Of a DNA stretch of 64,000 nucleotides, positions 9,630-38,985 are shown piece by piece. The DNA lies in the NCBI RefSeq assembly GCF_000023065.1, contig NC_012691.1, positions 2,090,501 to 2,154,500 on the forward strand, read 5' to 3'. Both the position numbers and the translations under genes were made by a program. The notes below the pieces were generated by a model, which was not told where the DNA came from, did not search any database, and saw only the letters and a list, made by a program, of their open reading frames with translations. Each line of letters opens with the position of its first letter. The first letter of the stretch is position 1. This DNA is from Tolumonas auensis DSM 9187 (GTDB lineage: Bacteria; Pseudomonadota; Gammaproteobacteria; Enterobacterales; Aeromonadaceae).

Positions 9630-9851
9630 AGAGCCAGTCAGACTGGCTCTGCTTTATTCAGACCGTATTCACGTAGTTTATTCGCCACTGCCGTGTGCGA
9701 CAGCCCCAGACGCTGCGCCAGTTGCCGGCTGGATGGATAAAGTGGATATAACCGCTCCAGCATTAACCGCTCAAAACGCTTCGTAGCCTCAGGCAAGGAG
9801 CCTTCAAACCACTGCTCCGCCGTCGATTCATGCGCATCCATTAATGGCAGC
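9630..9851. repeat. Left direct repeat: copy of the tyrR 3' end bounding the island
   Basis: These 222 bases align without gaps to 20072-20293. By eye there are 8 mismatches, all in the outer half (before about 9760) and all synonymous in the tyrR frame. The inner ~92 bases (9760-9851) are identical. The repeat includes the tyrR stop codon and its terminator stem (AGAGCCAGT/ACTGGCTCT at 9630-9638 and 9642-9650). Sequence homology ends abruptly at 9851, marking the left island junction. Confidence 0.93.
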
Positions 9852-9853
9852 AT
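9638..9853 (-). pseudogene. Displaced 3' end of tyrR
   Basis: This frame encodes 71 residues, identical in sequence to the last 70 residues of TyrR at 20080-21636, including the C-terminal helix-turn-helix (SSRQLAQRLGLSHTAVANK). The in-frame ATG at its start arises from the junction and is not a real gene start. It has no ACT, PAS or AAA+ region and no evident promoter. It is most simply the original chromosomal tyrR tail, displaced by about 10.4 kb when the island inserted. Confidence 0.9.
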
Positions 9854-9974
9854 AGGCTCAGTACACTTCCATTTCTAACACGAAAATGCCCCAAAGTAAG
9901 TTAGCCCGGAGCAGTAGAACAATAAACTTGCTAGCCCTCTACCATACAAATACTAATCCATCGCCGACCGAAAA

Positions 9975-10142
9975 CTATAACTCATTAATGGCTTCTGCCA
10001 GTTCAGCTTTGAAATCAGCAAAATCCTGCATGGTGACCATAGCTTTATCAAACAGGCCAAGAATGAGTTGAACTTGTTCAATATTGCGAAGATACGCAAT
10101 TTTGCGTTCTCTGGTGAGTAACGAGAATTTGAGTTCTTTTGG
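9975..10142 (-). pseudogene. Remnant of an unknown gene (55 codons)
   Basis: The minus-strand frame ending at the TAG at 9975-9977 reads a protein-like helical tail (TREKKIAYL-type start, then VQLILGLFDKA and ADFKAELAEAINEL), but it is preceded immediately by a stop codon and has no start. It looks like the C-terminal piece of a longer gene. An overlapping 123-codon frame (9953-10324) has poorer amino-acid composition and is less likely to be real. Family unknown. Confidence 0.3.
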
Positions 10143-10355
10143 TTAGCCTCTTTCACGCAGTGAAAGAGAAGTAGCGATACGGGTGTAATAAACGCTGTTG
10201 GGGAGCCTGAATGAGCATCACCTGCATCTTCCGATGCTTTCGTAGCATAAAAACAAGTGTAATGAAGCCACAAAATTAAGGTATTTATAACTAACAATAT
10301 TTTTATATCTGTTAGTTTTTTCAATCATATTAAACACCTACCTGTTGTGGAATAG

Positions 10356-10421
10356 TGAATTTGGCCACCAGACTGGAGGTGATAAAATTACCCCAGAACA
10401 CATAACAGGTGGCCAATTTCA
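10356..10421. repeat. Inverted repeat, possible insertion-sequence remnant
   Basis: TGAATTTGGCCACC (10356-10369) faces GGTGGCCAATTTCA (10408-10421) with one mismatch. The 38 bases between them have no coding potential. The pair lies between decayed gene fragments and may be the fused ends of a lost insertion sequence. Confidence 0.35.
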
Positions 10422-10439
10422 TACAGTAGCTGCACAACA

Positions 10440-10677
10440 CCACCAGAATTCCAGTCAAAGTGATCACTATTGAAGTGTTCACCCAGACCTGTTTTGTGAG
10501 TCTCACATTCGGGATAACAGTAGGGTATTAATGCAGGTGCTAGATACCATCAACCATAGCGGCAAGGGGAAGGTTTGGTTTGCTGGTGAAAGGATAACCA
10601 GAGCATGGTCTATGAAGCGGGAACATTTGTCACCGGCATACACGACTAACTGGCGTGAGTTGCCGGTGGTGAGGTGA
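10440..10677 (+). pseudogene. umuC-like C-terminal remnant (DNA polymerase V subunit)
   Basis: The segment 10504-10677 reads in frame to a TGA as VLMQVLDTIN, then KGKVWFAGE, WSMKREHLSPAYTT and RELPVV, matching the C-terminal tail of UmuC/RumB-type Y-family polymerases. Just upstream, in another frame, VITIEVFTQT resembles the preceding UmuC strand. The copy is therefore frameshifted or internally deleted and lacks the whole catalytic domain. umuDC-type operons are common cargo of plasmids and integrative elements, so this may be a trace of an earlier mobile element at the same site. Confidence 0.7.
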
Positions 10678-10820
10678 ATATCTTCTGATTAATACCACAC
10701 ACGACAATTTAGTGGCACGATAAGTTATAAATGAATCCAATGCATATTGCTTAACGTTCATCTGCATTGTTTGTATCGCATGAACTTAATGTTTCAGAGT
10801 GACATGCATTCTGATGGTGA

Positions 10821-10848
10821 AAAAAAGCCTCGCGACTGCGAAGCTTTG
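10821..10848 (-). terminator. Terminator of the island defence-like operon
   Basis: On the minus strand AAGCTTCGC pairs with GCGAGGCTT (one G-T) around AGT and is followed by a run of T. It lies 22 bases after the stop of the 531-aa gene and closes the two-gene operon. Confidence 0.75.
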
Positions 10849-10870
10849 GTTATTTTGTCACATCATCTGA

Positions 10871-12466
10871 TTACTTGTTATTAAACTTATCAACCAATGC
10901 TTGTAGTCGCATGGTGGAACGCTCAACCAACATACTGTCCAATTTGCTCGGTTCACATTGAAGTTGCTCATTGATGCAGTCCACATCGGTATCTGTATTG
11001 AACTGAGTCACTTTACTCTGAATTCGCGAACGAAGAATGTTCCAGAGAAGACTAACAACCTCAGGATCCGTAGTAAAATAACCTACCGGCAACGTTAAAC
11101 GACCGAGCCCGAGCTCCGGAGCAATTTGTGCGTGATATTGGATAAGACCGCACCCATTCTCACCAGGAAACACCATCATTTCCAAATGGGTATCAATTTT
11201 CCCCTCAAGATAAGACAACAGGTTACTGTCAATGCGGTATATAAATGTATTCTTTTTTTCGCAAGTCGCTTGGTAATTGAGACCACCACGTTTATCTGCT
11301 TGAAACACAAGGTTTAGACTACTGTTACGCTCTCCTTTCTGAAGTTCACAATTCATCTCTTTAACAAAGGACTGAAGACTTAGACTCGCACCGAATAATT
11401 CATGATCAGCACCTAACCATATCCCTTGATGCATCTGCTTATTCATGCTTTGCCGATGCACCCATTGTAGTATGGTCTCTCGATTGCTTGAGGTAGGCGC
11501 ATACATTGGGCCAATCATCATTCTTATTGCTTGGTTATTGTATGATGTTTTACGTAAGTATCGGTCATGCAACAATCTAGGTAGATCAAGATACTGCCGC
11601 TTAGATGTATAGTCTTGCTTGATGTAACGCTTAATCACGTCATCACACGCAAGTTCACAGTAGTCTTCAAGTGTAGAACTAGGACGTTCATTTTGTTGTT
11701 CCTTCAGCCACTCTATTGCCGTATCAACAAGTCCTGACTTTTGAACCAATGAGCAATGAGCATCCTTATAGTCCACTAGGCGGGTGTCTAGCCGGATACC
11801 TTTTAACGGGTCATGAGCGGCATGTATATTCAAGGTAATTTGCTGTGGCAGCCCAGAATGAATAACGGTAGCGCTGTTAACACGATAAAGATGCGTTTTA
11901 GGACTCTTCAATTCAGCAAAACTATCGGGTAGACATACCTTAAAACGATCGAACTGATTAGCTAGTATCTGACTATAATCTTTATTGTTGTAAGTACGAG
12001 TCATTAAAGGAAGACCTTTTTGAGGGTCCTCTTCTGAACGCGGCTGGATATGCCCAGTACACAGATCGATGTAAGTAAAGGTGCGGAAGTTCTTTACCTC
12101 TTCAATAATGATCCCATTGTCAACAGCCCCATCACGACGCTGTGCTGTTAGCTTAGCTGTTGAAGTTAGATCACCTTCGTCATTGTACTTGACTAAATCA
12201 CTTACGAGCATATCGGAAACAAGGACATCTCGTTCATGCTCGTTTAAGCCGAAGAAATTTGCTAGTTCTGTTGATGAGATAGTCTCAATATGAGCAACTA
12301 GCAGCAAAGCAGACTCTAGGATAGCTGGCAGACTTATTTTATTGGTTACATCAATATCCAGTTCGATCTTTTGTGTCGGTGCACACAAAGTAATAGTTTG
12401 TAATAATCGATCATAGTCAGCCGGCACTTCTATGCGCTGATTCTTAAGAGATAGAGTTTCACGCAT
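10871..12466 (-). CDS. Unknown 531-aa partner of the NERD-kinase-helicase
   Basis: No family is recognised. Residues ~60-105 (a segment beginning ISSTELANFFGLNEHERDVL) could form a winged helix. The middle (~320-400) contains MMIGPMYAPTSSNRETILQWV, and the C-terminal third is beta-rich before a helical tail. No signal peptide, membrane helix or HKD phospholipase-D motif is seen. Its ATG lies inside the end of the helicase gene (8-nt overlap), so the two proteins are made together, probably in fixed ratio. In type I Mokosh, the partner of the kinase-helicase is a PLD nuclease; this protein occupies the same place but lacks that motif. It may be a diverged nuclease, a sensor or a regulator. Confidence 0.75.
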   Translation of the reverse strand: MRETLSLKNQRIEVPADYDRLLQTITLCAPTQKIELDIDVTNKISLPAILESALLLVAHIETISSTELANFFGLNEHERDVLVSDMLVSDLVKYNDEGDLTSTAKLTAQRRDGAVDNGIIIEEVKNFRTFTYIDLCTGHIQPRSEEDPQKGLPLMTRTYNNKDYSQILANQFDRFKVCLPDSFAELKSPKTHLYRVNSATVIHSGLPQQITLNIHAAHDPLKGIRLDTRLVDYKDAHCSLVQKSGLVDTAIEWLKEQQNERPSSTLEDYCELACDDVIKRYIKQDYTSKRQYLDLPRLLHDRYLRKTSYNNQAIRMMIGPMYAPTSSNRETILQWVHRQSMNKQMHQGIWLGADHELFGASLSLQSFVKEMNCELQKGERNSSLNLVFQADKRGGLNYQATCEKKNTFIYRIDSNLLSYLEGKIDTHLEMMVFPGENGCGLIQYHAQIAPELGLGRLTLPVGYFTTDPEVVSLLWNILRSRIQSKVTQFNTDTDVDCINEQLQCEPSKLDSMLVERSTMRLQALVDKFNNK

Positions 12467-15400
12467 TGAATTCTTCCTCTGTCTTAGATTGACTCACATC
12501 AGCAATATCTTCAGGTTTAACAATCAAGTACTCACTATCTGTTTTACCGGTATGGCTATTGATGAAGTTAAACACTCGGCTTAATGGCGCTTCTGGATTT
12601 GTTTTGGTCCACATTGCACCAGCACCCACGATGATTAAGCGCTCTTTGGCGCGAGATAATGCCACGTTCACTCGGGCGTTATCATTCATAAAACCAGTTT
12701 TATTATTAGCGTTATGACGAACAAGGCTTAGCATGATGATGCGGTTCTCCGAGCCTTGATATGAATCAATGGTATCGATCTTTATTAGATCACGGATACC
12801 AGCAGCCCATGCAGCGTTTTCAAGGTTAAGCTCAAGAAGTTCAACTTGTTTACGGTAACCAGTGATGATCCCTATAGGTGGGGTCGAGTCGTTCTTACCC
12901 CACATTTTCAATTGTTCCACAGTACCATCAATGCTAACTAATTCATGTAATAAGCTGCTTAACAGCTCAACCTCTGCATCGTTGGAAACACCACCTTTGG
13001 CAGTATTTTTTTCTAGATAGCCATTACCAGAGGTATCGATCCAAGAAACACTCTTATTCCAAGGCTCGGGTAGCGACTTCATCCAATCAAGCGAAGCTTT
13101 CGGACCAGTCTTAAGTTCGCCGCTATAAAAGCACTGACTGATAATCTCACCAATCGCAGGCACCATTCGGTATTGTGTCGACAACATTTGACCATTATTA
13201 AGCTCGAAGGCGCGCTCAAAGTCTGTTTTGGTAACCTCATCCTTGCTCAAGTTAAGAGTGCGACATACATCTTTTATATGATCTACATCGTAGCTAGGAG
13301 CTAGTTGCTTATGGTCACCAACTAGCAAAACCCGCTTAGCCGACTGCATTGCAATCGCTAGCTCAGAGAAGGTTGCACGACCTGCCTCATCAATGATTAC
13401 CATATCGAATGAATTTTTATGAATCTGATAAGCTTCTGATCCAATACCAACAAGGGTACCAACCACCAATTGTCGAGTTCGCGCAGCAAAGGCAGCATAG
13501 CCACGTTGATCGGTCGCAAGACGTTGGAACCAAAGATGAGTCACCTTAATTACATCAGCCATGCGCTTAATGCGTTGTGGATTATGAACCTGGTGTGTTT
13601 CGGCTATTATTTCCAAAGCCGCCATTAAGGGGTTGTTGTGGCGAAGTATTTGCTCTGGGTAGTCAGTGTGTGTCTTTAGTCGTCCCTCAAGAGAAAATGC
13701 TAATTGTTCCATTCTACGTTCAGCAAGATTTAGCTTTTCTCTTACTCCGTTATCCTTTGGTTTATCCTCGGCTTCTCGTTTAGCATCGATTAACACTAAG
13801 CGAGCAAGATCAAATTGAAATAGCTCTAGGCCACAAGTGCGATATAAACCTGCCGCAGCCAACACAAATGATTTTGGCAGTTTTAGACGGGCAGAAAGAG
13901 ATAACATTCGAATCTCAAGCTCACTATGGAACTTAGTGCGCATTTGATCCTGCAAAGCAGAAGTATGCACATCAAGCATTTCCTTAGATATGCGTTCACG
14001 ATCACCAAGACGAACAATGCTGGGTATTCCAACTGAAGCATGCTCGCCCGCGATCTTCATCATCATGTCTCGGGCACGTACTACAACTTCGTCTGCAGCA
14101 ATGTGCGATTGACTGACAACGAGAATGCGGCGAACATCCCCTGATGTCATCAAGTGGTGAAGTAAAGCACTTGATAAAGTGGTTTTACCCGTACCTGGAG
14201 GCCCCATAAGTACGCTAAAAGGGTTCTCCAGTACGTATCTAAATGCCTTCTCTTTCGATTCATCTAGGTTGTAACGCTTTAACTGCTCTTCGGTAATATT
14301 AGGCAAGGAAGGAGGTTGATCACCGTCTGCCCCAGAAATGAATCGCTCAGTTAAATCTCCCATTACTGCTTCTCCGGACAGCACTCGACTCAATGCTTCC
14401 TTACGACGCGCCCAGCTTATATCACAACCTTGATTTGATAGTGTCAGTGTCACTCCTTCTTTAATGTTTTTAAGACGGAAGTGATTTGACCCAACTTTTT
14501 CCTTAAGCACCAACAAGCCATCACCTGATGCTTTAATATCCAATTGTCCAAAGAGAGTTTCAAATTGATCAGTAGACACATTGATTTCGTCATCATAATC
14601 AAACTCAAAATCATTTATGTTTTCAGCAATTTGCACATGAACTACGTTACCTTTTTCTACCGCATCTTTAGTTACAGTAACGGTAGGTAAGGTTTCTCGT
14701 TCTACATCAACTAAACGTTGCCATAGTTGTTTAACCGGTACAGAGCCATTAGCAGGCATCGGTAACTGCTGTTCAACACTAGGTTCTGTATTTAATAACT
14801 GGCGGATTACCGGAAGACTCTCTATGTACTCAATAAATTCGTTGTTATTAGTTGATGCATTAAGTTTTTTCAATTGTATCGGCTGCTCAATCGGCATCTG
14901 TCCCCGATTCTTCCTCTGCAGGAAACGAGAGTCTGTAGTCAAATCTTGACCACTCAACTTGCCGAAAAATGAGCGATTTCCATCATGAAGTTCATTTCCT
15001 TCAATGTTTAGGTTTACAGTTAATTTATGTGTAAAACCACAAAGAAACACTGTAAGACGATTCGCCTGACGGCGAGCCGAGAAGTGGTAAACGCCTGAGT
15101 CCATCTCAAACTCTTCACCATTTTCATGTATGTTTGGGTGGTAAAATAAGATTGGCTCTATAGCTACAGGTTCCGGCTCATTAGCTACCGTCATAGTTCT
15201 ACGTAGTAGCTCAAGATCACGAGGAACAGATTGCAAATCATCACCTAGTGCGTTCTTTATCTCAACACGAATCTTAGTAGCCCCCTTGTCCGCACATCCA
15301 CCAAAGATTTCATCGACTAGAAGATAAACTGCATAGCGGTCACGAGCACTAGCACTAACATCCGACTTAGGCGAGTACGTGGAGTTGCTGGGGGAAAGAC

Positions 15401-17429
15401 CATTGAGATCCATATCAAACATGTCCAAGAGAACTACATTTAGCTTGCCATCATTTTCTTGCACAAGAATATTTTCAGGCTTGAGATCGCCGTGACTTAG
15501 TTCAAGATCATGTATCTTGTTGATAGCACGAATAATATTGTCTGCAATTAAGTATCTTTTCTCGTAAGTGTTACCTTTTTTCTCCATCCACTTTTCAAGG
15601 TCAATTCCATCAACAAATTCCTGAACAACATGAGTTCCGTTCATACCATGTCCAAAATCGAGAATCTTTGGTATTGGTAAGATATTGTTACTAGCAATTT
15701 TACAGCGATTCAGGAAATGCAGTAGACGTAGTGATTGACCATGGTTGTCAGGATTAGGGCGAGCAGACATGAATATACGAACAATGCATAGCTTACCGTC
15801 AGAAGTTTTAGAACGGTAGGTAATGCGTTGACGAATCATATCTTGTTCAGGCGGGAAATTAGGATCTTGCAAGAACGACATCATGGGTATTATTTGTGAA
15901 CCGTATGATGTAAGTTCATCAAGCACTCGTTGCTTGTCTTGATTGGTGTCGATATTCTGCATGTTCACCAATTGCGCCAAGACCTCAAGCATTTGACCTG
16001 CGTTGTCGAAACGATTATTAGCCTCTGGATCCAAAGCTTTCTGAAACCAACCATGTAATCGCCCCTCAAAAGGGTCACTCTCTAAGGCTGGCTCTACCCA
16101 TTCAGTCCAACCATCTTTAGGACTAGGTAACTTTGTCCCATAAGCAACTTCATAGAGCAAAACCCCTATTTGGAATACATCGATTGCTTGACTGAGTATA
16201 TCTGTTGCGCCAAGAACATCTTCAGGCATTTCAACACGAGAACTGTTTAGCTCTTGACGCAAATCAGCAAGAGATGTGTTTCCCAAGTCAGGAAACTTAC
16301 TGCTAAGCAGACCGCTAATAAGCACTGAACCACGAGTTTTATCCCACCATAGACGAGCAGAGCTTAGATCTCGATGGTATACACCAATTGCGTGCATTGA
16401 TGCTAAGGGGGTTAATATTGAGCGGATCATTGATAGCCGATCTTCGGCATTTAGGTGTGAGGTATTTAGGTAATCATCTAGGCGTTCAACCATTGGCGGA
16501 AGGCTATATACTTCAGCCATGTCTACCGGCAACGTATCTTCATTTAGATCGTGCTTAAAATTAAGCAGATAATCATCACTTAGTTGGCGATCTATCTTAT
16601 GAATATAACGGATTGCACGTTCTTCTCGCAGTCCAAGGAGTGCACGCACAGTCATAGTGGTATCTACATTGTGTAGATTGTTAAAATTCCAGATCCGAAC
16701 TAATGCTTTATCTTCAGCATCACGAGTATGCTCCCCTATATGTTCGTTATAGACACCTTTAGGTCCTCTAAATGCTGGTTCGTTTAGCTCGGGGATAATA
16801 TAGCTTGCTTCATTGCGATAGCGCTTTTGGATGGCTTTACCGCCACGTCGCCAATCATCGAATATATTGATTTGATTGCGATTACAAGGGCGAAGATGTG
16901 GATTTTTGTCGAAAAAGTATTGAGCGTTGTCCTGAGGAATAATTTCTTTATAGATTTGTTTGTCACCTATATTTTTGAAATTATTGATATGAACAACCAA
17001 AGGTGCATCGGTTGGCGTGGTACGAAGCACTTTAGCCTCACCACACAAAACAACCATAGGCTGCACTTCGAAGAAAGTATTTCCCCATCGATTAACCAAA
17101 TCCCGTTTAAATAGCGACTTGATACGCATAGCATGTTCACGTTTAACCTCGATAGGCGACGCATGCTTAATAATGTGACCGTTGGGGGTTGTTTGATACC
17201 AAGTACGGTCATCCATCTCAATGGTGCCGGCCAAGTTTTTTAGTTCGACAAGCAGCACTCGATCATCTGTGAAGATCAACATATCGATCTCCATTGTCTT
17301 GCCTTTAGTGTCGGCCATCAGGAAGCCCGCATAGCCAACCCAATGCTCAGGGAGACTGTCTCGTAGTAGAAGAGCTGCTTCGTGCTCAGATTTCTTTAGC
17401 CCTTCAGAGCTTACAACTATGAGTTCCAT
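12459..17429 (-). CDS. NERD nuclease - pseudokinase - kinase - SF1 helicase fusion (1656 aa)
   Basis: One cytosolic polypeptide with four recognisable parts. (1) Residues ~1-130: NERD domain with D49 and the E62-L63-K64 triad of PD-(D/E)XK nucleases. (2) ~260-480: kinase-like fold with HRD near 350, but the Lys/Asn of the catalytic loop and the DFG motif are degraded, so probably a pseudokinase. (3) ~530-740: Ser/Thr kinase with HGDLKPENILV (~645) and a DMF in place of DFG. (4) ~1050-1620: UPF1/DNA2-like helicase with Walker A GPPGTGKTT (~1076), DEAG (~1345), GDHKQLAP, QYRM and SYQGSE, ending VALSRAKERLIIVG. Kinase plus SF1 helicase is known from Mokosh antiphage systems; the NERD head and second kinase are additions. 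It is first in a two-gene operon. A phage-defence role is inferred. Confidence 0.85.
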   Translation of the reverse strand: MELIVVSSEGLKKSEHEAALLLRDSLPEHWVGYAGFLMADTKGKTMEIDMLIFTDDRVLLVELKNLAGTIEMDDRTWYQTTPNGHIIKHASPIEVKREHAMRIKSLFKRDLVNRWGNTFFEVQPMVVLCGEAKVLRTTPTDAPLVVHINNFKNIGDKQIYKEIIPQDNAQYFFDKNPHLRPCNRNQINIFDDWRRGGKAIQKRYRNEASYIIPELNEPAFRGPKGVYNEHIGEHTRDAEDKALVRIWNFNNLHNVDTTMTVRALLGLREERAIRYIHKIDRQLSDDYLLNFKHDLNEDTLPVDMAEVYSLPPMVERLDDYLNTSHLNAEDRLSMIRSILTPLASMHAIGVYHRDLSSARLWWDKTRGSVLISGLLSSKFPDLGNTSLADLRQELNSSRVEMPEDVLGATDILSQAIDVFQIGVLLYEVAYGTKLPSPKDGWTEWVEPALESDPFEGRLHGWFQKALDPEANNRFDNAGQMLEVLAQLVNMQNIDTNQDKQRVLDELTSYGSQIIPMMSFLQDPNFPPEQDMIRQRITYRSKTSDGKLCIVRIFMSARPNPDNHGQSLRLLHFLNRCKIASNNILPIPKILDFGHGMNGTHVVQEFVDGIDLEKWMEKKGNTYEKRYLIADNIIRAINKIHDLELSHGDLKPENILVQENDGKLNVVLLDMFDMDLNGLSPSNSTYSPKSDVSASARDRYAVYLLVDEIFGGCADKGATKIRVEIKNALGDDLQSVPRDLELLRRTMTVANEPEPVAIEPILFYHPNIHENGEEFEMDSGVYHFSARRQANRLTVFLCGFTHKLTVNLNIEGNELHDGNRSFFGKLSGQDLTTDSRFLQRKNRGQMPIEQPIQLKKLNASTNNNEFIEYIESLPVIRQLLNTEPSVEQQLPMPANGSVPVKQLWQRLVDVERETLPTVTVTKDAVEKGNVVHVQIAENINDFEFDYDDEINVSTDQFETLFGQLDIKASGDGLLVLKEKVGSNHFRLKNIKEGVTLTLSNQGCDISWARRKEALSRVLSGEAVMGDLTERFISGADGDQPPSLPNITEEQLKRYNLDESKEKAFRYVLENPFSVLMGPPGTGKTTLSSALLHHLMTSGDVRRILVVSQSHIAADEVVVRARDMMMKIAGEHASVGIPSIVRLGDRERISKEMLDVHTSALQDQMRTKFHSELEIRMLSLSARLKLPKSFVLAAAGLYRTCGLELFQFDLARLVLIDAKREAEDKPKDNGVREKLNLAERRMEQLAFSLEGRLKTHTDYPEQILRHNNPLMAALEIIAETHQVHNPQRIKRMADVIKVTHLWFQRLATDQRGYAAFAARTRQLVVGTLVGIGSEAYQIHKNSFDMVIIDEAGRATFSELAIAMQSAKRVLLVGDHKQLAPSYDVDHIKDVCRTLNLSKDEVTKTDFERAFELNNGQMLSTQYRMVPAIGEIISQCFYSGELKTGPKASLDWMKSLPEPWNKSVSWIDTSGNGYLEKNTAKGGVSNDAEVELLSSLLHELVSIDGTVEQLKMWGKNDSTPPIGIITGYRKQVELLELNLENAAWAAGIRDLIKIDTIDSYQGSENRIIMLSLVRHNANNKTGFMNDNARVNVALSRAKERLIIVGAGAMWTKTNPEAPLSRVFNFINSHTGKTDSEYLIVKPEDIADVSQSKTEEEFNA

Positions 17430-17842
17430 ATTTATCCCTTTTATTTAATCGAATACTGACTACTTTTGATTTTGTTACTTCCTGATGTAACTTTTTACTA
17501 TCGACAAAACACCTATTGAATAGAGCTATTTCTAGATAAAGATACGCCGAGTGAACCGATGATTAATCTTGTTAACTTTTTATCAATGCATAAAACCAAA
17601 TTAGGTCTGAACTATTAGTTTAACGCCTGCCAGACAATGGATACATCTGAATATTCACTTATAGAATAAAAGGACATGAAACGCTCTTCCTGCCACTTCA
17701 CAGGTTGGTATTACATAGATTGAACTAGCTGATAAAACTACTGCTCATTCCGTGAGGATTAGTTAGATGCATCAAGTGTCCACTAAAACAAGTGGACACT
17801 TAACTCTTCTTGAACAGTGGATGTTGCGGTTTAACTGCTGAT
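17430..17842. other. Intergenic region upstream of the island operon
   Basis: About 410 AT-rich bases without a credible gene. It should contain the promoter of the helicase operon; an AAGGGAT ribosome site precedes the ATG at 17429. It also contains a perfect inverted repeat, listed separately. Confidence 0.5.
17774..17801. repeat. Perfect 11-bp inverted repeat
   Basis: AAGTGTCCACT (17774-17784) and AGTGGACACTT (17791-17801) flank a 6-base AAAACA loop. There is no T-run on either strand, so it is not a standard terminator. It could be an operator, a transposon-end trace or a transcript-end hairpin for the gene ending at 17843. Confidence 0.6.
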
Positions 17843-18241
17843 TCACGCCCAATATGCCGGATTTGTTATGCGCTCATTGGCAGCTTTAACAACATTGATT
17901 CCTGCAGCATCACTAAACAAAGATTGATGACGAGGGTCTGAAACTAAAAACTCAACAGTAAGGTCTTTTCTTCCAGCCTTCATAAGTTTTTTAAATCCTT
18001 TTTGTGTGTATCCGGATAGATCGTTGATTAGATTACGACAGTAAACATACGGTTCTTGGTTGCTTTCTCTCATACGTCTTTCAAAATCTAGAGCGATAGG
18101 TCTAAATTCTTTGATGGCCAATGTATCAGCAATAGATTTATTTACATCGTCTGCAAACGTTTTTAGAGCTTGCTCGAACGCAAATTCAGAAATAAAGTTA
18201 TTTTTGACGCTGTTAAACTCCATTTCAGTCATCTTTGGCAT
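17843..18241 (-). CDS. Hypothetical protein, 132 aa
   Basis: No family is recognised. The protein is soluble and mostly helical, beginning MPKMTEMEFNSVKNNF. It has no signal peptide or membrane segment. An alternative start is the ATG of M4 or M7. It lies on the same strand and 80 bp downstream of the 311-aa gene, so the two are probably one transcript. Found only within the tyrR island here; a role alongside the defence-like operon is possible but unproven. Confidence 0.6.
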   Translation of the reverse strand: MPKMTEMEFNSVKNNFISEFAFEQALKTFADDVNKSIADTLAIKEFRPIALDFERRMRESNQEPYVYCRNLINDLSGYTQKGFKKLMKAGRKDLTVEFLVSDPRHQSLFSDAAGINVVKAANERITNPAYWA

Positions 18242-18321
18242 GTAATAACTCCTTTAATGTATAAATCAGAGAAATAGTTGGCACTGATGTGTTTTTAATC
18301 AATGACCTTTACATCTCAAAA

Positions 18322-19257
18322 TTAACTGCAGATCTCTTTTTCCAAATGCTTCACCAGTTCAATCATGCTTTCCATAACAAATGGTAATTCTTCAGGAAGT
18401 ATCGGTGTGTTTGCATACTTGGCAAACTGCATGCACGCATACCCCGATGGCATTACCGTATCTACCGACCGCGTAGAACCAATAGGAGATTGGAAAATCA
18501 CTTTTTCATACTCAGGTTGTCCTGCGCATGAATCTCTTGTTGGAGTGACGTAATCTACAATCAAAGGAGCAAATTGGACTGGCAGTCGACCCTCATTTGC
18601 CAGTCGATTTGCAAACATCAACAGTGATGTAAACTCCGATGTATCCTTCGCTTTTGATGTCAGTTCGACAGAGCCCTTTCCTTTCTTCCGCGATGCATCA
18701 GACAAGTAAATGGCATCATAGCGATCATTGATAGGGACTATGGCATACATGTATTTCCATGAGCCAGACAGATGATGCAACATGTTTACATCGTATCCGG
18801 CGTCCTGCATATGCCCCATCCCGCTCATAAAATCACAGATGATCGCATTCTTTGCTGAGATATTGGCTGGAATGTCTTTGTCATAACGATGCTTATTGAG
18901 CTTTTTGTCTATGATTTCTGTTGCCAGTTTTGTGAGCGTTAGGATCTGTCTGTCAGTGATGTTTGTTCCCATTAATCGTTTGCAGGTGGCAGCAAACCCA
19001 GCAAAGTCATATACAGGCATCAGAACAAATGGATCTTGCTGCATGTAAACCGGAAGACTGGTTACTTGTGCATACAACTCCTCATAAGCCGTAGTGCCAG
19101 TTATCCAGAGTGAAGACACAGCATGAAGCACATGCATGTGACTTAACTCTGTCCTGTAGTTTATGGCTGCGTAATTTTCCAATGAGCGGGCCATATCCCC
19201 TATAAATAATGTAATTGCCGGCTTTGCTTTCTGGGGTAAAGGGGTGGGATTATCCAT
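18322..19257 (-). CDS. Hypothetical protein, 311 aa
   Basis: No family is recognised. The protein looks soluble, with a mixed alpha/beta pattern. Histidine and methionine are locally frequent around ELSHMHVLHAVSSLW (~40-52) and CDFMSGMGHMQDAGYDVNML (~147-166), which might be a metal or nucleotide site. No known catalytic motif is visible. It is first of a probable two-gene unit with the 132-aa gene in the tyrR island. A cargo or defence accessory role is speculative. Confidence 0.6.
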   Translation of the reverse strand: MDNPTPLPQKAKPAITLFIGDMARSLENYAAINYRTELSHMHVLHAVSSLWITGTTAYEELYAQVTSLPVYMQQDPFVLMPVYDFAGFAATCKRLMGTNITDRQILTLTKLATEIIDKKLNKHRYDKDIPANISAKNAIICDFMSGMGHMQDAGYDVNMLHHLSGSWKYMYAIVPINDRYDAIYLSDASRKKGKGSVELTSKAKDTSEFTSLLMFANRLANEGRLPVQFAPLIVDYVTPTRDSCAGQPEYEKVIFQSPIGSTRSVDTVMPSGYACMQFAKYANTPILPEELPFVMESMIELVKHLEKEICS

Positions 19258-20071
19258 AGTATTACCTTTTCATAGGCGAGTTTAATCCCGCCAAATTAAT
19301 TAACGTTGAAAAATAAAAAAGCATAGGTCACAAATAATTTGTGATGGTTTAACTATGGAGATTAAGTGTAAGTAATCATGATGCATCCTCTCATTCACTA
19401 AACATTAGAACACCCCAAAGGAGATCCGTTCTAACCCTTAATTTATAGAGAATACCGTGAACCAGAATTTGCCGAACAATGTTCGTCTTTATGGTCGCAG
19501 TAGTCTGTTGTTGCGTAATAAACGCGCACAAATAGCGTAGATTAGTTTCCAAAATTAAACAAATGGTTTTTGTGCCAAATTAGACGCATACCCTAATTGT
19601 AATAACTTCTTGTATGAGCGATGCAACTACACTTCGATGTTCGCTTAGGTTATGTCAAACCTAATACACTATCCCCTCAAAACGCAGCGATAAACAGAGA
19701 TGAGGCGGCTACTCATTTAAAACCAAAGCAGTTAGAAAAAGCACAATCCCTTGCTAATCAATACTTTCAAAAGTATCAAAAGCACTAAACTAAATAAGCA
19801 GAGCTGGAGATTTTGTCATCATCAGCTCTATTCCTTATTTAAAAATAGTCATTTTGATTTTCAAAATCATCGCTGACTCTCGGTAATTGCGCTTAACACC
19901 CATCAGAATTGACCATATTTATTTTCATGCGAACAACGGGTGTTAGCTGTTAGGGGTTAAAGCATTTTTGTCCAGAAACGAGTTACGTTCAGTATGAACT
20001 TTAATACTCAGTTGTAGCTCCATTAAAGCAATGGGATGCAGGTTAGGATGATACTTTATTACTCTCCCACA
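19258..20071. other. Gene-poor right end of the island
   Basis: About 810 bases with no complete gene. They contain a Sel1-like fragment (19621-19788) and an inverted pair TAACACCC (19894-19901) / GGGTGTTA (19938-19945), followed by GCTGTTAGG, which is faintly similar to an integron attC site. The stretch ends at the right tyrR repeat. No integrase gene is visible on either strand. Confidence 0.5.
19621..19788 (+). pseudogene. C-terminal fragment resembling a Sel1-repeat protein
   Basis: A 55-codon frame from an ATG reads to LSPQNAAINRDEAATHLKPK and QLEKAQSLANQYFQKY before TAA. The pattern N-R-D-x-x-A then P-x-Q-x-x-x-A is typical of the tail of Sel1-like repeat proteins. There is no repeat unit upstream, so this is probably a gene remnant. 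It could also be a tiny real gene. Confidence 0.35.
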
Positions 20072-20293
20072 AGAGCCAGTCAGACTGGCTCTGCTTTATT
20101 CAACCCGTATTCACGTAGTTTATTCGCCACTGCCGTATGCGACAGCCCCAGACGCTGTGCCAGTTGCCGGCTGGACGGATAAAGCGGGTATAACCGTTCC
20201 AGCATTAACCGCTCAAAACGCTTCGTAGCCTCAGGCAAGGAGCCTTCAAACCACTGCTCCGCCGTCGATTCATGCGCATCCATTAATGGCAGC
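20072..20293. repeat. Right direct repeat: tyrR 3' end completing the intact gene
   Basis: This 222-base copy pairs with 9630-9851. It contains the tyrR terminator hairpin (AGAGCCAGT/ACTGGCTCT at 20072-20080 and 20084-20092) and the last 70 codons. Because mismatches are confined to the half next to the island, that half is probably island-derived, with a crossover inside the identical ~92 bases (about 20202-20293). Confidence 0.93.
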
Positions 20294-21636
20294 CGCAGCA
20301 CATCCGGTGTCAGCTCATCCCCTTCCAGCAATGTCAGCGCCTGATACAGCGCATTTTTCAGCTGCCGGACATTCCCCGGCCAAGGGTAACTGTTCAGAAA
20401 TTCCGTCATCGAACGGGAAAAACGCGGACGTCGCCGCTGCAGTTCTTCACTGATCCGGCTGCAGAATTGTTGTGCCAGCGGCATGATATCGGCCAGACGC
20501 TGGCGCAACGTCGGCATCTCCAGCGTCAGCACATTCAGACGGAAAAACAGATCTTCGCGGAACAAGCCTTTCCGGACCTGTTCTCCCAGTGATTTGCGTG
20601 TCGTGCAATAAAGCCGCACATCCACTGTCACCTCACTTTCCTGCCCGACTCTGTGGAAACGTCCGTCCTGCAGTACACGCAGCAATTTACTCTGCAATAA
20701 CGGCGACATTTCAGCGACTTCATCCAGCAGGAATGCACCGCCACTGGCTTGTTCCAGCAACCCTTTTTTGCCCGGCCAGTCCGGCCCGAACGCACCGGGG
20801 GCAGAACCGAAAAGTTCATGCTCCGCCACATCATCTGGCAGTGCGGCGCAATTCAGCGTCAGCAGCGGGCCATTGGCTCGCAGACTCGCCCGGTGGCAGG
20901 CACGCACCAGCATCTCTTTTCCGGACCCCGTCTCGCCCATGATCAGCAACGGCTGATCCTGCATTGCAAAGCGGCGTGCCTGATGCAATAACTGCTGCAT
21001 CACCTGACTTTCAGCGGTGAATTGTTCAAAACTGCTGTCGTCATAGCTGTGCAGCAGATTGAAATGATGCCCTACCCGTCGCGCTGATTTCAGCACAACC
21101 ACGGCACCTGCGAGATGAGAAACGCCCTGCGTATCCGGAATGAATATCGGCAGAATATCGGCCAGGAACTCTTCACCGGCAAAAACCAGTTTACAGGTTT
21201 CAGGCTGTGGACTTTCAGAAGACAACCACTGCAGAAAAGCAAATCCCTTCAGAAAACTGCCCGCCTGCACGCCCTGAATATCTTTCAGCGATAAACGCAG
21301 AATATTCAGCACGGCATCGTTCGCCTGAGTCAGGCGACCTTTGATATCTAAAGCAAAAACCAGATCAGGCAAGGCTTTCATCAATGCCTGTATTTCATGA
21401 TGTTCACGTTCCGATGGCATATAGCCAACTGTTTTCACATCCATGACACCCGCGATCCGGCGCAGATCAGGCAACAATTTTTGCAGGCTGGCAAAATCAA
21501 CATCGGACAGATGCAAATAAATGATACCTGCCACGTCAATTTCGATGCCCCGCAGATCAATCCGGTTATCTTCCAGCTGCGCCAGCAACTCTCTGGTCAA
21601 CCCTAATCGATCTTCACACGTTACCTGCAACCGCAT
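20080..21636 (-). CDS. tyrR: Aromatic amino acid regulator TyrR
   Basis: A transcription factor controlling synthesis and transport of aromatic amino acids. At 518 aa it is close to E. coli TyrR (513). The order is N-terminal ACT domain (residues 1-75, MRLQVTCEDRLGLTRELL), PAS domain (~80-190), AAA+ domain (~205-430) with Walker A GETGSGKE and Walker B FLLDEVAE, and a C-terminal Fis-type helix-turn-helix. The sigma54-contact loop reads GAFGPDW instead of GAFTGA, as expected for TyrR, which works with sigma70. The last 70 codons lie in a 222-bp repeat whose other copy sits 10.4 kb away, so this C-terminus was probably supplied by the island with only synonymous changes. Confidence 0.95.
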   Translation of the reverse strand: MRLQVTCEDRLGLTRELLAQLEDNRIDLRGIEIDVAGIIYLHLSDVDFASLQKLLPDLRRIAGVMDVKTVGYMPSEREHHEIQALMKALPDLVFALDIKGRLTQANDAVLNILRLSLKDIQGVQAGSFLKGFAFLQWLSSESPQPETCKLVFAGEEFLADILPIFIPDTQGVSHLAGAVVVLKSARRVGHHFNLLHSYDDSSFEQFTAESQVMQQLLHQARRFAMQDQPLLIMGETGSGKEMLVRACHRASLRANGPLLTLNCAALPDDVAEHELFGSAPGAFGPDWPGKKGLLEQASGGAFLLDEVAEMSPLLQSKLLRVLQDGRFHRVGQESEVTVDVRLYCTTRKSLGEQVRKGLFREDLFFRLNVLTLEMPTLRQRLADIMPLAQQFCSRISEELQRRRPRFSRSMTEFLNSYPWPGNVRQLKNALYQALTLLEGDELTPDVLRLPLMDAHESTAEQWFEGSLPEATKRFERLMLERLYPLYPSSRQLAQRLGLSHTAVANKLREYGLNKAEPV

Positions 21637-35106: not shown

Positions 35107-36090
35107 CTATTTTGCAAGCATGATGTCGTTGATAATTTGCTGTGATGCAACCGCATCTTGTCGACTGATGGCTGCCATCAATTCATTGTTGTCATTGAGT
35201 TTTTCGCAGAGTTTGAGCAGTCGTTTTACTGTCGCAATATTGGTTTCTGCTTCACGAACGGGATCTAAGCCGCTCGCATCCGGGAAGGTATCGAAATAGT
35301 AAGCACCCTGATAACCGTCGCGCTGCATCTGCCACAGGAATTCGAGTGTTGCCCGCGGGTTAACTGACGCGACCATCAAACCGTCATCGCGTTTACCCCA
35401 GCCATCATTGCAGTCGAGACCCAGCAGACGTGAGCGGCGTGCCACCATTGCAGCGGCATAAGCAGGAATTTCGTTTGCGTAAAGAACGTGTGCGAAATCA
35501 AGCGTGATACCCAAGTTGTCACAACCGGCTTCATCAAGCGCCAGCAGACAGGTCGTCACGTTCGGGAAAATGCTAAATGCACGCGGTTCATTCGGTTTGT
35601 ATTCAATACTGATATCAACATCCGGTGCGTATTCAGCCACTTCACGAACTGCGCTTACCGCGTCTTCCCACACTTTTTTATAATCAGCCTGGAAACAATA
35701 ATCAAAGCCATCCTGACCCATCCAAAGTGTCATCAGCTTAGAGCCAAATTCACGGCCGGTATCAATGCCACGTTTAGTTAATTCAATGGCTTTGCGACGA
35801 ATTACCGGGTCCGGGTTTGTGAATGCACCAATTTTGAATTCCGGGGCATCCCAACGCATTTGCATGCCGTTAACAGCAAGGCCCACTTCTTCTATCTTCT
35901 GACGCATGGCCTTAATATCATCGGTAGTGATGTGTTGCGGGTAATTTAAATCCAGGTGAGTCAGACCTTTTGCGGTTGCTGCCCGCTCAATCATTTGCAT
36001 CACCGTTGGTTTGCCTTTTAGGTCTTTCCAGTAAAGGTGCGCACCTGAAGCAAATGAGTTCAGACGTGTAGCGAATTTTAGTTCAGACAT
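35107..36090 (-). CDS. TIM-barrel sugar isomerase/epimerase family protein
   Basis: A 327-aa soluble protein of the xylose-isomerase-like TIM-barrel (AP endonuclease 2) superfamily. Candidate metal ligands are Glu in SIEYKPNEPR (~162), Asp-His in ITLDFAHVLYA (~196-199), Asp in LGLDCNDGWG (~226) and Asp in YYFDTFPDASG. It is first in the six-gene operon, ahead of the Rbs-type importer, so it probably acts on the imported sugar before or after the PfkB kinase. Epimerase, isomerase or decarboxylase activities all occur in this superfamily; the substrate cannot be assigned. Confidence 0.8.
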   Translation of the reverse strand: MSELKFATRLNSFASGAHLYWKDLKGKPTVMQMIERAATAKGLTHLDLNYPQHITTDDIKAMRQKIEEVGLAVNGMQMRWDAPEFKIGAFTNPDPVIRRKAIELTKRGIDTGREFGSKLMTLWMGQDGFDYCFQADYKKVWEDAVSAVREVAEYAPDVDISIEYKPNEPRAFSIFPNVTTCLLALDEAGCDNLGITLDFAHVLYANEIPAYAAAMVARRSRLLGLDCNDGWGKRDDGLMVASVNPRATLEFLWQMQRDGYQGAYYFDTFPDASGLDPVREAETNIATVKRLLKLCEKLNDNNELMAAISRQDAVASQQIINDIMLAK

Positions 36091-36563
36091 GTGGATTCCT
36101 TTATAAACTGACCTGTAAAGTACTTTTCAACTTTACGGATTTCCGTGAAGTTGTTTAATTATTACTACCAAAATATCTTTTCTTCAAGGTCGGAAATCAT
36201 TCAATGCACCAATTTGAGATGTCATTCACGTATTTGATCTGAGTTGCTAACGCGGGATACCGGACGAAGTGAATATCCATCGCCAGAAGAGATTCAGACG
36301 AATAATTTGAGGGCTATGTGGGGGTCTGATAGTGCAGGACAAAGCACAGCGATCCGGAAGCGCCCGTGCTGTTGATGTCGGAGAAATGGTGTATCGCTTG
36401 ATGAAAGTCCACGGACTGGAGGGAGTATGAGTGACCGAGACAATTGACAATCAGCATTTCAGATAAAAGATGATGAAATTAATCATCCAGCATAAGAAAT
36501 TCTTCGATTTGATTGTTATCAGCAGTGACGGTCTGAATTAGACATTAACTGGTTGAATTTAAT
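36091..36563. other. Gene-free interval between the sugar operon and the AraC gene
   Basis: The first ~120 bases are AT-rich and likely hold the promoter of the minus-strand sugar operon. Bases ~36250-36450 are distinctly more GC-rich than both flanks and look like a foreign remnant, but no frame is protein-like and I do not recognise the element. Confidence 0.4.
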
Positions 36564-37376
36564 TTACTCAGAATTAACTGTCTTCCTGGAATAAAGCTGT
36601 TGATATGATGACGGAGTGATGCCAACCAACTTAACAAAGACTCTTCTGAAATATCCTACATCATTAAACCCTAACGTATTAGCTATATCTGTTATGTTTC
36701 TATCTCCTTCTGTCAAGGCTAGTTTTGCTGCTTTTATTTTTTGATGTTGAATACAATCAGTTAATGTTTGGTTAAACGTTTTCCTGAAAACCCGGCCGAG
36801 ATAATCAGGGTTACACTGGAGTCTTTTTGCAATTTGCGATGTTGTTATTTCCGTTTTATATGTCATTTTTATGATGGATTTTGCACTATATGCCAAACTA
36901 ACACTTTTGTTATCCTCATCATTTAGCTTTGTTTCAGAAATCTGCTTCATGATTAGCAGTAATATTAAATTCAATACGACTTTATCAGCATTACTTTCTT
37001 GCTCTGCAAGTAACATGTTAAATAAAGAAATAATTTTATTGGTGTCGCTAGATTTTGTTGTTTTTAATAATTGGACAATATTGTTATTCCTTCCCACATC
37101 ACTATAGTCATTAACATTGAAATGCACCCAATAAAACTTTAGATCTTTTGGATATTCATTAACACCTTCATGCTGTTGAAAAGGATACAACAACAATGAG
37201 TCCCCAGGAAGCAGATGATATTCGATATCATTTTCTTTCATGGATAACTCGCCACTAATAACATAAATTAACTCATATGAATTAATCACTCTTCTGGCAT
37301 GAATACCAGTTCCATTCGACACAAAAAACCCACCATTCTCTACATCAACTGAATGATTAATCAATATATCAGGCAT
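36564..37376 (-). CDS. AraC-family regulator with cupin sensor
   Basis: A 270-aa regulator with an N-terminal cupin-like domain (~1-110; SYELIYVISGELSMKEN and LLPGDSLLLYPFQQHEG) and a C-terminal double helix-turn-helix (~165-265; TSQIAKRLQCNPDYLGRVF and NITDIANTLGFNDVGYFRRV). It is divergent from the symporter/GH127 pair with a ~200-bp shared promoter region, so it most likely activates them in response to an arabinoside-derived sugar. Confidence 0.9.
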   Translation of the reverse strand: MPDILINHSVDVENGGFFVSNGTGIHARRVINSYELIYVISGELSMKENDIEYHLLPGDSLLLYPFQQHEGVNEYPKDLKFYWVHFNVNDYSDVGRNNNIVQLLKTTKSSDTNKIISLFNMLLAEQESNADKVVLNLILLLIMKQISETKLNDEDNKSVSLAYSAKSIIKMTYKTEITTSQIAKRLQCNPDYLGRVFRKTFNQTLTDCIQHQKIKAAKLALTEGDRNITDIANTLGFNDVGYFRRVFVKLVGITPSSYQQLYSRKTVNSE

Positions 37377-37574
37377 TAAAAAGTCTCATTAAGATTTTTC
37401 TAAAATAAATATATTGTAAATAGTTAATCCATAATTAGACCAAGCTCACAAATTAAAACCAGCAGTCGGAATTGTCCTTTTTATATACTAAAGCGTCATC
37501 TTGTTACTAAACGATTGACCTCTATAGTAGGTATCGCACACAACAACTTGTCTTCAAATATAATCGAGGCGCGT

Positions 37575-38975
37575 ATGAGCAACACGATAGATGAACAAAT
37601 CGAAATCAATCAGGTTACTGATTATGAAGAAAAAATAGGCAGTTGGGAGAAGTTTGGTTACGGATTAGGCGATGCCGGAGGTACCATAATCACAGGTCTA
37701 ATAGGAAATTTTTTAACTTTTTTCTATACCGATATCTTTGGTCTTACGCCTGCGATAGTCGGGATCTTATTTATGAGTCTGCGCATATTTGATGCGATAT
37801 CAGATCCGATAATGGGAGTTGTAGCAGACAAAACACGTAGTAAATATGGACGATTCCGACCATGGCAACTATGGATTGCAATACCTATTGGCATTATTGG
37901 AGCGCTAACATTCACTGTTCCAGATGTCAGCTATAACCTGAAAATTGCATATGCGTTTGTTACTTATTTATTGCTATCGCTTAGCTATACCGCTATCAAT
38001 GTTCCTTATTGTGCATTGATAAATACGATGACAACCAATCATAAAGAAGTGATTAAATGTCAAACATGGCGATTTGTGTTAACAGGTTTTGCTGGCTTAA
38101 TGGTGTCTGTTGGTTTGCCTTGGTTTGTAGGTTTTTTCAGTAAAGAAAATCAAGCTTCAGGTTACCAATACGGTGTAGGTATTTTATGTGTTATTGCTGT
38201 AGTCATGTTTTTGTGGTGTTTTTTTACTGTTAAAGAAAGAACGCCTGTCTCATCTCTGGGTAGTTTCTCATTAAGTGATCATATACGAAGCATTAAGAAA
38301 AATGATCAATTAATTCTTATGCTTGTCATGTCATTTTTGTTAATAAATGTATTTAACACTCGTGGTGGTGCTTATTTATATTTTATCTCATATGTACTAA
38401 ATGGTGATGCCAAATATACCTCTATGTTTTTTGGCATGGTTACTAGTGGGTTAATTTTAGGTCCTATATTAGCTAACTATCTAACTCGCATTATTGAACC
38501 AAAAAACCTATATTTTCACACAAATATTTTCCTTGGCATATATTCATTATTGATGTTGATTTTACCTGCATCAAGTAATGATCAAACATTATGGCTTGTT
38601 GTTATTTTCTCTTACAGTTTGATACTTGGATTCACCTTGCCACTACATTTTTCATTAATGGCCTTTGCTGATGATTATGGACAGTGGAAAACAGGAGTAA
38701 GATCGTCAGGTTTAAATTTTGCTTTTAACTTGTTCTGTATAAAACTGGCTTGGGCATCTAGTGCTGCGATAATCAGTTTAGTGTTCATTATTGTCGCGTA
38801 TGAACCAGGAATTGAACATCAAACAGCAAAATCAATCACGGGTATTACAAGTATTGAGACTATCATTCCTGCAATCATGCATTTTGCATTAGCGTTTATG
38901 ATTGCCAAAAGTAAATTAAGTTCAGAATTAATGACAACAATATCCACACAATTAAAAAACAAATTCATCAATTAA
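37575..38975 (+). CDS. GPH-family sugar:cation symporter
   Basis: A 466-aa inner-membrane protein of the glycoside-pentoside-hexuronide:cation family with about 12 TM helices. The start ATG at 37575 follows GAGG; the longer frame adds 20 residues with no ribosome site. Family motifs: [20 protein letters not shown] at the N-terminus, [20 protein letters not shown] (~75-95), and the central KERTPVSS loop. It is 10 bp upstream of the GH127 gene, so it probably imports a short L-arabinofuranosyl oligosaccharide or glycoside for intracellular cleavage. Confidence 0.9.
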
Positions 38976-38985
38976 GGGAATTATA

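Follow-up and report, generated by a model that had tools for sequence, protein, structure and literature searches.

Which defence system, if any, is encoded by a two-gene operon on an island of the Tolumonas auensis DSM 9187 genome, and what might each of its two proteins contribute? The operon lies in a 64,000-nt stretch of contig NC_012691.1 (henceforth the window, in whose numbering all coordinates are given). A first-pass annotation made from the sequence had described two ORFs, of 1656 and 531 residues, coupled by an 8-nt overlap, and inspection of the ORF list confirmed both the ORFs and the overlap at these positions:

12459..17429, minus strand: mkoA, 1656 aa, ATG start (ORF; PADLOC PDLC03921 and Pfam)
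10871..12466, minus strand: mkoB, 531 aa, ATG start (ORF; PADLOC PDLC03923)
12459..12466, minus strand: 8-nt overlap between the end of mkoA and the start of mkoB (ORF list)

We conclude that this operon is almost certainly a Mokosh type I antiphage system, from a clade in which MkoA bears a NERD domain. The founding paper of Mokosh is that of Millman et al. in 2022. The domain make-up, the pairing of MkoA with MkoB, the patchy distribution, the carriage on an island and the absence of an HKD motif from MkoB are direct readings of the sequence; the best explanation as a whole, a NERD-clade Mokosh type I system on an island at tyrR, we regard as probable, and the division of labour proposed below as more tentative.

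The product of mkoA is built from four recognizable parts:

MkoA residues about 1-170: NERD domain (Pfam NERD at 13-128, 58.9 bits)
MkoA residues about 240-480: pseudokinase (boundaries from our own HMMs)
MkoA residues about 528-717: atypical second kinase (boundaries from our own HMMs)
MkoA residues about 1045-1610: Upf1-like SF1 helicase (Pfam AAA_11 at 1055-1378, 126 bits; AAA_12 at 1401-1603, 154 bits)

The Pfam Pkinase family matched two stretches, the better one at 544-663 with 63.4 bits, and the NERD, Pkinase, AAA_11 and AAA_12 matches all exceed the curated cut-offs. Together with the alignment of MkoA proteins described below, they bear out the NERD head, degraded kinase and UPF1-like helicase first assigned to the 1656-residue protein. 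Residues 1-768, modelled with AlphaFold (mean pLDDT 76.3, pTM 0.46), match solved protein kinases in a Foldseek listing where the two kinase regions are not told apart, and matches below the NCBIfam cutoffs were to MAD6, PglW and IGHMBP2-family helicases. By predicted domain content, MkoA of the window has both the COG1112/Upf1-like SF1 helicase and the Ser/Thr kinase domain that are traits of Mokosh type I, and MkoA is assigned to SF1_Upf1 in the available text of PMC10925250.

The PADLOC MkoA model PDLC03921 aligns with residues 5-1638 of 1656 (1137 bits, profile positions 4-1599 of 1607). This match takes in NERD, both kinase regions and the helicase, so the NERD domain and the second kinase do not set the protein apart, as had been supposed. 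The partner, listed at first as unrecognised, is MkoB by PADLOC model PDLC03923 (residues 21-488, 145 bits), and a separate adjacent gene matching the MkoB model is thereby present, as Mokosh type I requires. By the terms of the first-pass annotation, its reading would be refuted if the operon in its entirety matched a known system of like domain composition with confidence, and PADLOC Mokosh type I is such a match. The PADLOC matches to MkoA and MkoB thus support the kinship to Mokosh suggested by the first-pass annotation. They do not support its further suggestion of a new Mokosh variant or a distinct system, since existing models span both proteins and a table in PMC10952713 already gives NERD (PF08378) together with a PLD-like domain for Mokosh type I; because of that table we assign NERD to Mokosh type I as already described.

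Two E. coli copies of Mokosh type I (L045 and L046) likewise consist of two coupled genes in the same order, with an MkoA of ~1650 aa reading NERD-kinase-kinase-Upf1-like helicase and an MkoB of ~515 aa, as in the window; the partners of both are recognised by MkoB models. MkoA of E. coli AW1.7 is 31% identical to that of the window. The 8-nt overlap of mkoA and mkoB recurs in L040, L041, L043, L044 and L055; it is 1 nt in L045 and L046, and L042 has a 14-nt gap instead. BREX type 2 PglW has an N-terminal head like that of MkoA (PglW profile at 15-428, 105 bits), but the match covers only profile positions 17-424 of 1403 and the C-terminus of the window protein is a helicase. According to the available text of PMC12839542, PglW and DndF both carry this tripartite NERD-pseudokinase-kinase head, which in PglW is followed by winged helices and an inactive STAND domain. 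Mokosh type II MkoC shares the Upf1-like helicase and probably the PLD-like fold, and its profile matches the helicase end of MkoA (1401-1623, 104 bits); unlike the two separate genes of the window, however, MkoC is a single fusion protein in the part of PMC11672841 that deals with Mokosh.

We compared 34 MkoA loci (23 belonging to the NERD clade, 11 lacking NERD), which were picked by similarity search and not at random, and which include near copies (L045/L046 from E. coli, L057/L059 and L058/L062). The NERD clade includes L040, where NERD is in a separate, Pfam-confirmed ORF just upstream of mkoA, and L057, whose called ORF begins inside NERD. Two plasmids have a free-standing NERD gene immediately before mkoA: one of Pantoea (L040:2553-3251), where MkoA has no NERD of its own, and one of Pseudomonas amygdali (L043:1733-2350), where MkoA also has one. 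Among the 23 aligned MkoA of the clade, D49 and K64 of NERD are both kept in 21/21 rows with letters there, E47 is found in 18 rows (otherwise Asp in two and Gln in one) and E62 in 18 (otherwise Asp in three). The helicase Walker lysine K1082, D1347 and E1348 are invariant (23/23). Of the residues singled out by the first-pass annotation, D49 and K64 thus stood as conserved, while an Asp placed near 646 is refined to D648 and a Walker A Lys placed near 1079 to K1082. In kinase 1 the presumed beta-3 Lys position holds Arg in 22/22 rows with letters and the DFG Asp is Ser or Thr in all 23 proteins; the HRD Asp is conserved in 23/23. Judged by its residues, kinase 1 of MkoA is a pseudokinase.

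The second protein is MkoB:

MkoB: N-terminal winged helix and C-terminal PLD-like domain without HKD (Foldseek on a low-confidence model)

Pfam gave no match for MkoB of the window, a sequence search found no solved structures for it, and a search of a viral structure library gave nothing at E 0.001 or better. In a Foldseek search of the PDB with an AlphaFold model built from nine sequences, Zucchini came first (E 4.5e-4, the only match below 0.001; TM-scores were low), and later matches included Nuc, PPK1 and Tdp1 and the winged helices of MarR, CggR and TrmBL2. PPK1 (polyphosphate kinase 1), Nuc and Tdp1 are PLD-fold enzymes. On this model MkoB probably has a PLD-like fold, an assignment that is only moderate because the mean pLDDT is 57.5. 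Profiles of 20 NERD-type and 10 short-type MkoB, the latter from beside NERD-less MkoA, align in their N-terminal halves (96% probability, E 2.4e-9). When the C-terminal parts are compared alone, the '-LEILLIP-' strand of NERD-type MkoB pairs with the HKD strand of the short type. The probability is 44% (E 2.4e-4) if three short relatives that lack HKD are kept in the profile, and 4.6% (E 0.0088) if they are taken out; PLD ancestry of the NERD-type C-terminal domain is likely, not proven.

The HKD motif itself is absent from MkoB of the window. Having located the HKD strand in NERD-type MkoB by the profile alignment, we found that the region corresponding to residues 420-485 of the window's own MkoB contains HxK(x)4D in none of the 22 NERD-clade MkoB (22 for 23 loci because L065 is cut by a contig end; MkoB of L068 extends to a contig end and that of L070 was read from the open frame with no start chosen). 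L060 alone has an HxK in this region, which does not form HxK(x)4D. Outside the region there is one such pattern, in L055 at 372 (near window 391), which we set aside as spurious; the near-match HLKSNQYE of L040 lies in the same place. Pfam PLD families were missing from the matches of the 20 NERD-clade MkoB scanned. The second protein, first described as a non-PLD partner, is thus MkoB without HKD, and its fold is probably PLD-like on the low-confidence model. Four other residues are nearly invariant in the 22 proteins: E429 (21/22), H445 (20/22), P460 (21/22) and G462 (22/22).

How do these features sort across Mokosh? Our own HMM found NERD in none of the 11 short MkoA, and HKD is present in 8/11 of the MkoB beside them. 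NERD-less operons such as L071, L204, L206 and L199 share with the window the kinase and Upf1-like helicase of MkoA and a homologous N-terminal half of MkoB; they differ from it in having no NERD and, for most of the NERD-less MkoB, in having HKD. In 4/4 scanned NERD-less pairs the best PADLOC matches were PDLC03920 (MkoA) and PDLC03922 (MkoB), and we therefore count both kinds as Mokosh. Pfam on five HKD-type MkoB found PLDc_2 in four (in L204 at 26.8 bits, just below the 27-bit cutoff) and not in L202; it found no PLDc_2 in the three MkoB that lack HKD beside a NERD-less MkoA. These three (L206-L208) belong to PP2C-bearing alphaproteobacterial plasmid operons, in which the PP2C phosphatase is the third gene (L206:7421-8146, L207:7487-8296, L208:7433-8251).

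A midpoint-rooted helicase-domain tree was made from 44 rows, 10 of them other helicases. In it the NERD clade forms one group (SH-aLRT 99), as do the PP2C operons (SH-aLRT 100). The 11 NERD-less loci do not: L199 and L200, on long branches, stand apart from the other nine, which group together (99); near these nine branch some of the ten other helicases. NERD maps to a single change on this tree, so the association between NERD and HKD has an effective sample of one. We reject a perfect exchange of NERD for HKD, because 3/11 NERD-less operons also lack HKD and because there is only the one change. A takeover of the nuclease role by NERD, and thereby a move from MkoB to MkoA, would be expected to give this pattern, but coincidence could give it too.

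The part of PMC11672841 that describes type I Mokosh does so with a PLD nuclease, and this speaks against our best explanation, since MkoB of the window has no HKD. We do not treat HKD as defining Mokosh type I, because the NERD-clade loci examined, the E. coli copies included, are without it. The PLD nuclease usually named as the Mokosh effector is, judging from these sequences, probably dead in the NERD-bearing clade, also in the two E. coli copies examined; mutational work there should therefore aim at the NERD of MkoA rather than the HKD of MkoB. The fresh point seems to be that MkoB has apparently lost a nuclease site present in relatives, while MkoA has another nuclease-like head.

A division of labour between the two proteins can be proposed, tentatively. 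The Upf1-like helicase of MkoA would survey nucleic acid, probably RNA or phage nucleic acid that has been unwound. MkoB would bind nucleic acid by its winged helix, and its PLD-like domain, catalytically dead, would make it an adaptor or sensor; the pseudokinase/kinase pair may be a nucleotide-dependent switch. Once infection is sensed, the PD-(D/E)xK-type NERD head would be released and would cut nucleic acid. Two systems offer analogies: the PglW head, which may serve as a backup, suicidal effector (available text of PMC12839542), and Hachiman, a sensor helicase restraining a nuclease (available text of PMC10925250). Mokosh is stated to degrade viral transcripts in the available text of PMC11291487.

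MkoB of the NERD clade might instead still be the nuclease, through a derived, non-HKD site on its PLD-like fold, with NERD as an accessory or a grip on nucleic acid. The near-invariance of E429, H445, P460 and G462 fits such a site, as does a best Foldseek match that is itself a nuclease, Zucchini. We nevertheless think this unlikely, in view of the missing HxK(x)4D in the region aligned with the HKD strand (22/22) and the strong conservation of the NERD catalytic residues in MkoA.

Kinase 2 suggests another arrangement. In the window its HGD (646-648), N653 and D669 are all retained, and in the clade H646-G647 are found in 23/23, D648 in 22/23, N653 in 20/23 and D669 in 21/23 proteins. The presumed beta-3 Lys, which is Lys in 18/23 aligned MkoA, is Arg551 in the window, and is therefore absent from both kinases of this protein; the beta-3 positions of both were assigned by eye from the alignment and the strands of the AlphaFold model. 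Because of Arg551, kinase 2 of the window is not fully intact, contrary to the intact Ser/Thr kinase of the first-pass annotation. Arg also occupies this position in L041 and L055, Asn in L042 and Cys in L056. The two E. coli copies differ from the window in the opposite sense, having kept the Lys and lost the DFG Asp. The system might work by a kinase signal that gates degradation, as the first-pass annotation proposed: kinase 2 would phosphorylate a target in host or phage, and the nuclease-like parts would be secondary. The retention of HGD-N-D in most relatives and the PP2C phosphatase gene of three short-type operons would suit this idea. We consider it doubtful given the Arg, Asn or Cys at the beta-3 position in five of the 23 proteins and the lost DFG Asp of the E. 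coli copies; moreover, no PP2C is annotated in the 7 NERD-clade records with annotation, among which plasmid gene tables are incomplete. The NERD head as cutter, with the kinase pair as its switch, remains our preferred reading.

We next consider where the operon lies:

9630..9851, no strand: direct repeat, left copy, 222 nt; downstream palindrome and detached tyrR 3' fragment, the left island boundary
9852..20071, no strand: island carrying the operon, between lpxH and tyrR
17843..18241, minus strand: orf132, 132 aa, on the island upstream of mkoA
18322..19257, minus strand: orf311, 311 aa, on the island upstream of mkoA
20072..20293, no strand: direct repeat, right copy, 222 nt; 3' end of the complete tyrR and downstream palindrome
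20080-21636, minus strand: complete tyrR (ORF list)

The repeat copies are identical at 214/222 positions (96%) and spaced by 10,442; both are ~83% identical (184 and 183 of 222) to the tyrR end of G005, the closest of five same-genus genomes compared for it. The site is empty, with lpxH followed directly by tyrR, in 5/5 same-genus genomes fetched (of the 10 others known). An element that integrates at the 3' end of a gene and restores that end is the usual picture, and it matches the island at tyrR. The 2-kb windows between 10001 and 20000 have a GC content of 0.39-0.43, against 49.0% for the T. auensis TA4 genome in the available text of PMC3236046. These sequence features indicate that the operon arrived on a 10.4-kb island, which sits at the tyrR 3' end, and island carriage, part of the original description, is borne out by the repeat bounds and the low GC. 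A second low-GC stretch of the window (36001-40000, GC 0.34-0.36) is possibly another acquired segment.

Of the island genes upstream of mkoA, orf132 has no PADLOC, Pfam or PHROGs match, and its sole NCBIfam match falls below the cutoff (E 0.09); orf311 matches nothing in PADLOC, Pfam, NCBIfam or PHROGs, nor in plasmids. The island also holds many short ORFs; in the five ORFs submitted to Pfam, no recombinase was recognised. This and the Arg in place of Lys in kinase 2 could point to a non-working system, a decaying passenger on a defunct island. Such decay is improbable: both ORFs are uninterrupted and full length, with helicase and NERD residues intact (ORF list and alignment), and the 96% identity of the repeat copies suggests that the island arrived recently.

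MkoB is found in 2/100 relative genomes counting its own, in 0/10 other same-genus genomes and in 6/398 genomes of the phylum, its own included. The closest plasmid MkoB is from a Pantoea piersonii plasmid (53% identity), and phage records gave one match, in a Pseudomonas phage. Directly before MkoB there is a large MkoA-like ORF in 6/6 Pseudomonadota genomes fetched; such an ORF also lies just upstream in 7/7 fetched plasmid or E. coli records and in 8/9 near-full-length MkoA loci of the genome_contigs set (the ninth, L065, meets a contig end). In E. coli there is a DNA match in 68/5426 genomes, which in the 20 rows listed covers 3-6% of the query, in the helicase part only; both of the matches that were opened have the two-gene operon. 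In E. coli AW1.7 the Mokosh operon adjoins Qat antiphage genes, annotated as qatB, qatC, qatD and a P-loop NTPase (L045:9998-14736), and this neighbourhood is a defence island. Three tyrosine recombinases lie alongside the copy on a P. aeruginosa plasmid.

Searches of genome_contigs with MkoB and of viral_contigs with the MkoB alignment confirmed no relatives, and the MkoA alignment gave 26 loci in viral_contigs, none matching from the NERD end. We left out of the counts weak PDLC03923 matches in 16/369 genomes besides its own, of which 10/16 loci were read: L004 and L016 have an MkoB-like start, and the centre of L012 lacks an ORF of 250 aa. By eye, six appear to resemble HemW-type radical SAM proteins and L008 another protein. 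Also left out were the PDLC03921 search, which matches 66/75 genomes and 13/14 controls through widely matching kinase and helicase parts, and an MkoB tally of 116/299, where 8/14 controls match too; in that tally G709 and G539 match the whole MkoB profile and most other rows listed only the PLD part.

Two further operons (L167:2862-11148 and L168:7443-15820) encode a von Willebrand-like protein with DxSGSM, candidates for a phosphatase and a kinase, a GPPGTGK helicase and a protein whose N-terminus matches the MkoB models, the other roles being judged by eye. They are reminiscent of TerY-P triads, and a Mokosh relative with split genes is possible.

That the operon is instead a new antiphage system distinct from Mokosh, made of a NERD nuclease, two kinases, a helicase and an unrelated partner, might be read from the partner's lack of a Pfam match and of HKD and from the short coverage of the E. 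coli DNA matches listed, but we reject it as very improbable indeed, since PADLOC models match nearly the whole length of both proteins, MkoB models match 8/8 partners scanned (the window's own among them), the profile comparison above shows NERD-type and PLD-type MkoB to be homologous in their N-terminal halves, and NERD is in print for Mokosh type I in the table of PMC10952713.

The locus adds one Mokosh type I system, in a toluene-producing Tolumonas and on a cleanly bounded island; the comparison of clades matters more. It is possible, although we would not yet favour it, that the nuclease changed hands within Mokosh type I: NERD and the pseudokinase would have joined MkoA in one clade, the PLD nuclease of MkoB would have died and turned into a sensor or adaptor that bears a new Glu/His pair, by now nearly invariant, and the PP2C-bearing alphaproteobacterial clade would represent a second, separate loss of HKD. 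If this is true, the NERD clade would offer a natural experiment with two states, in which the effector was replaced inside one defence system.
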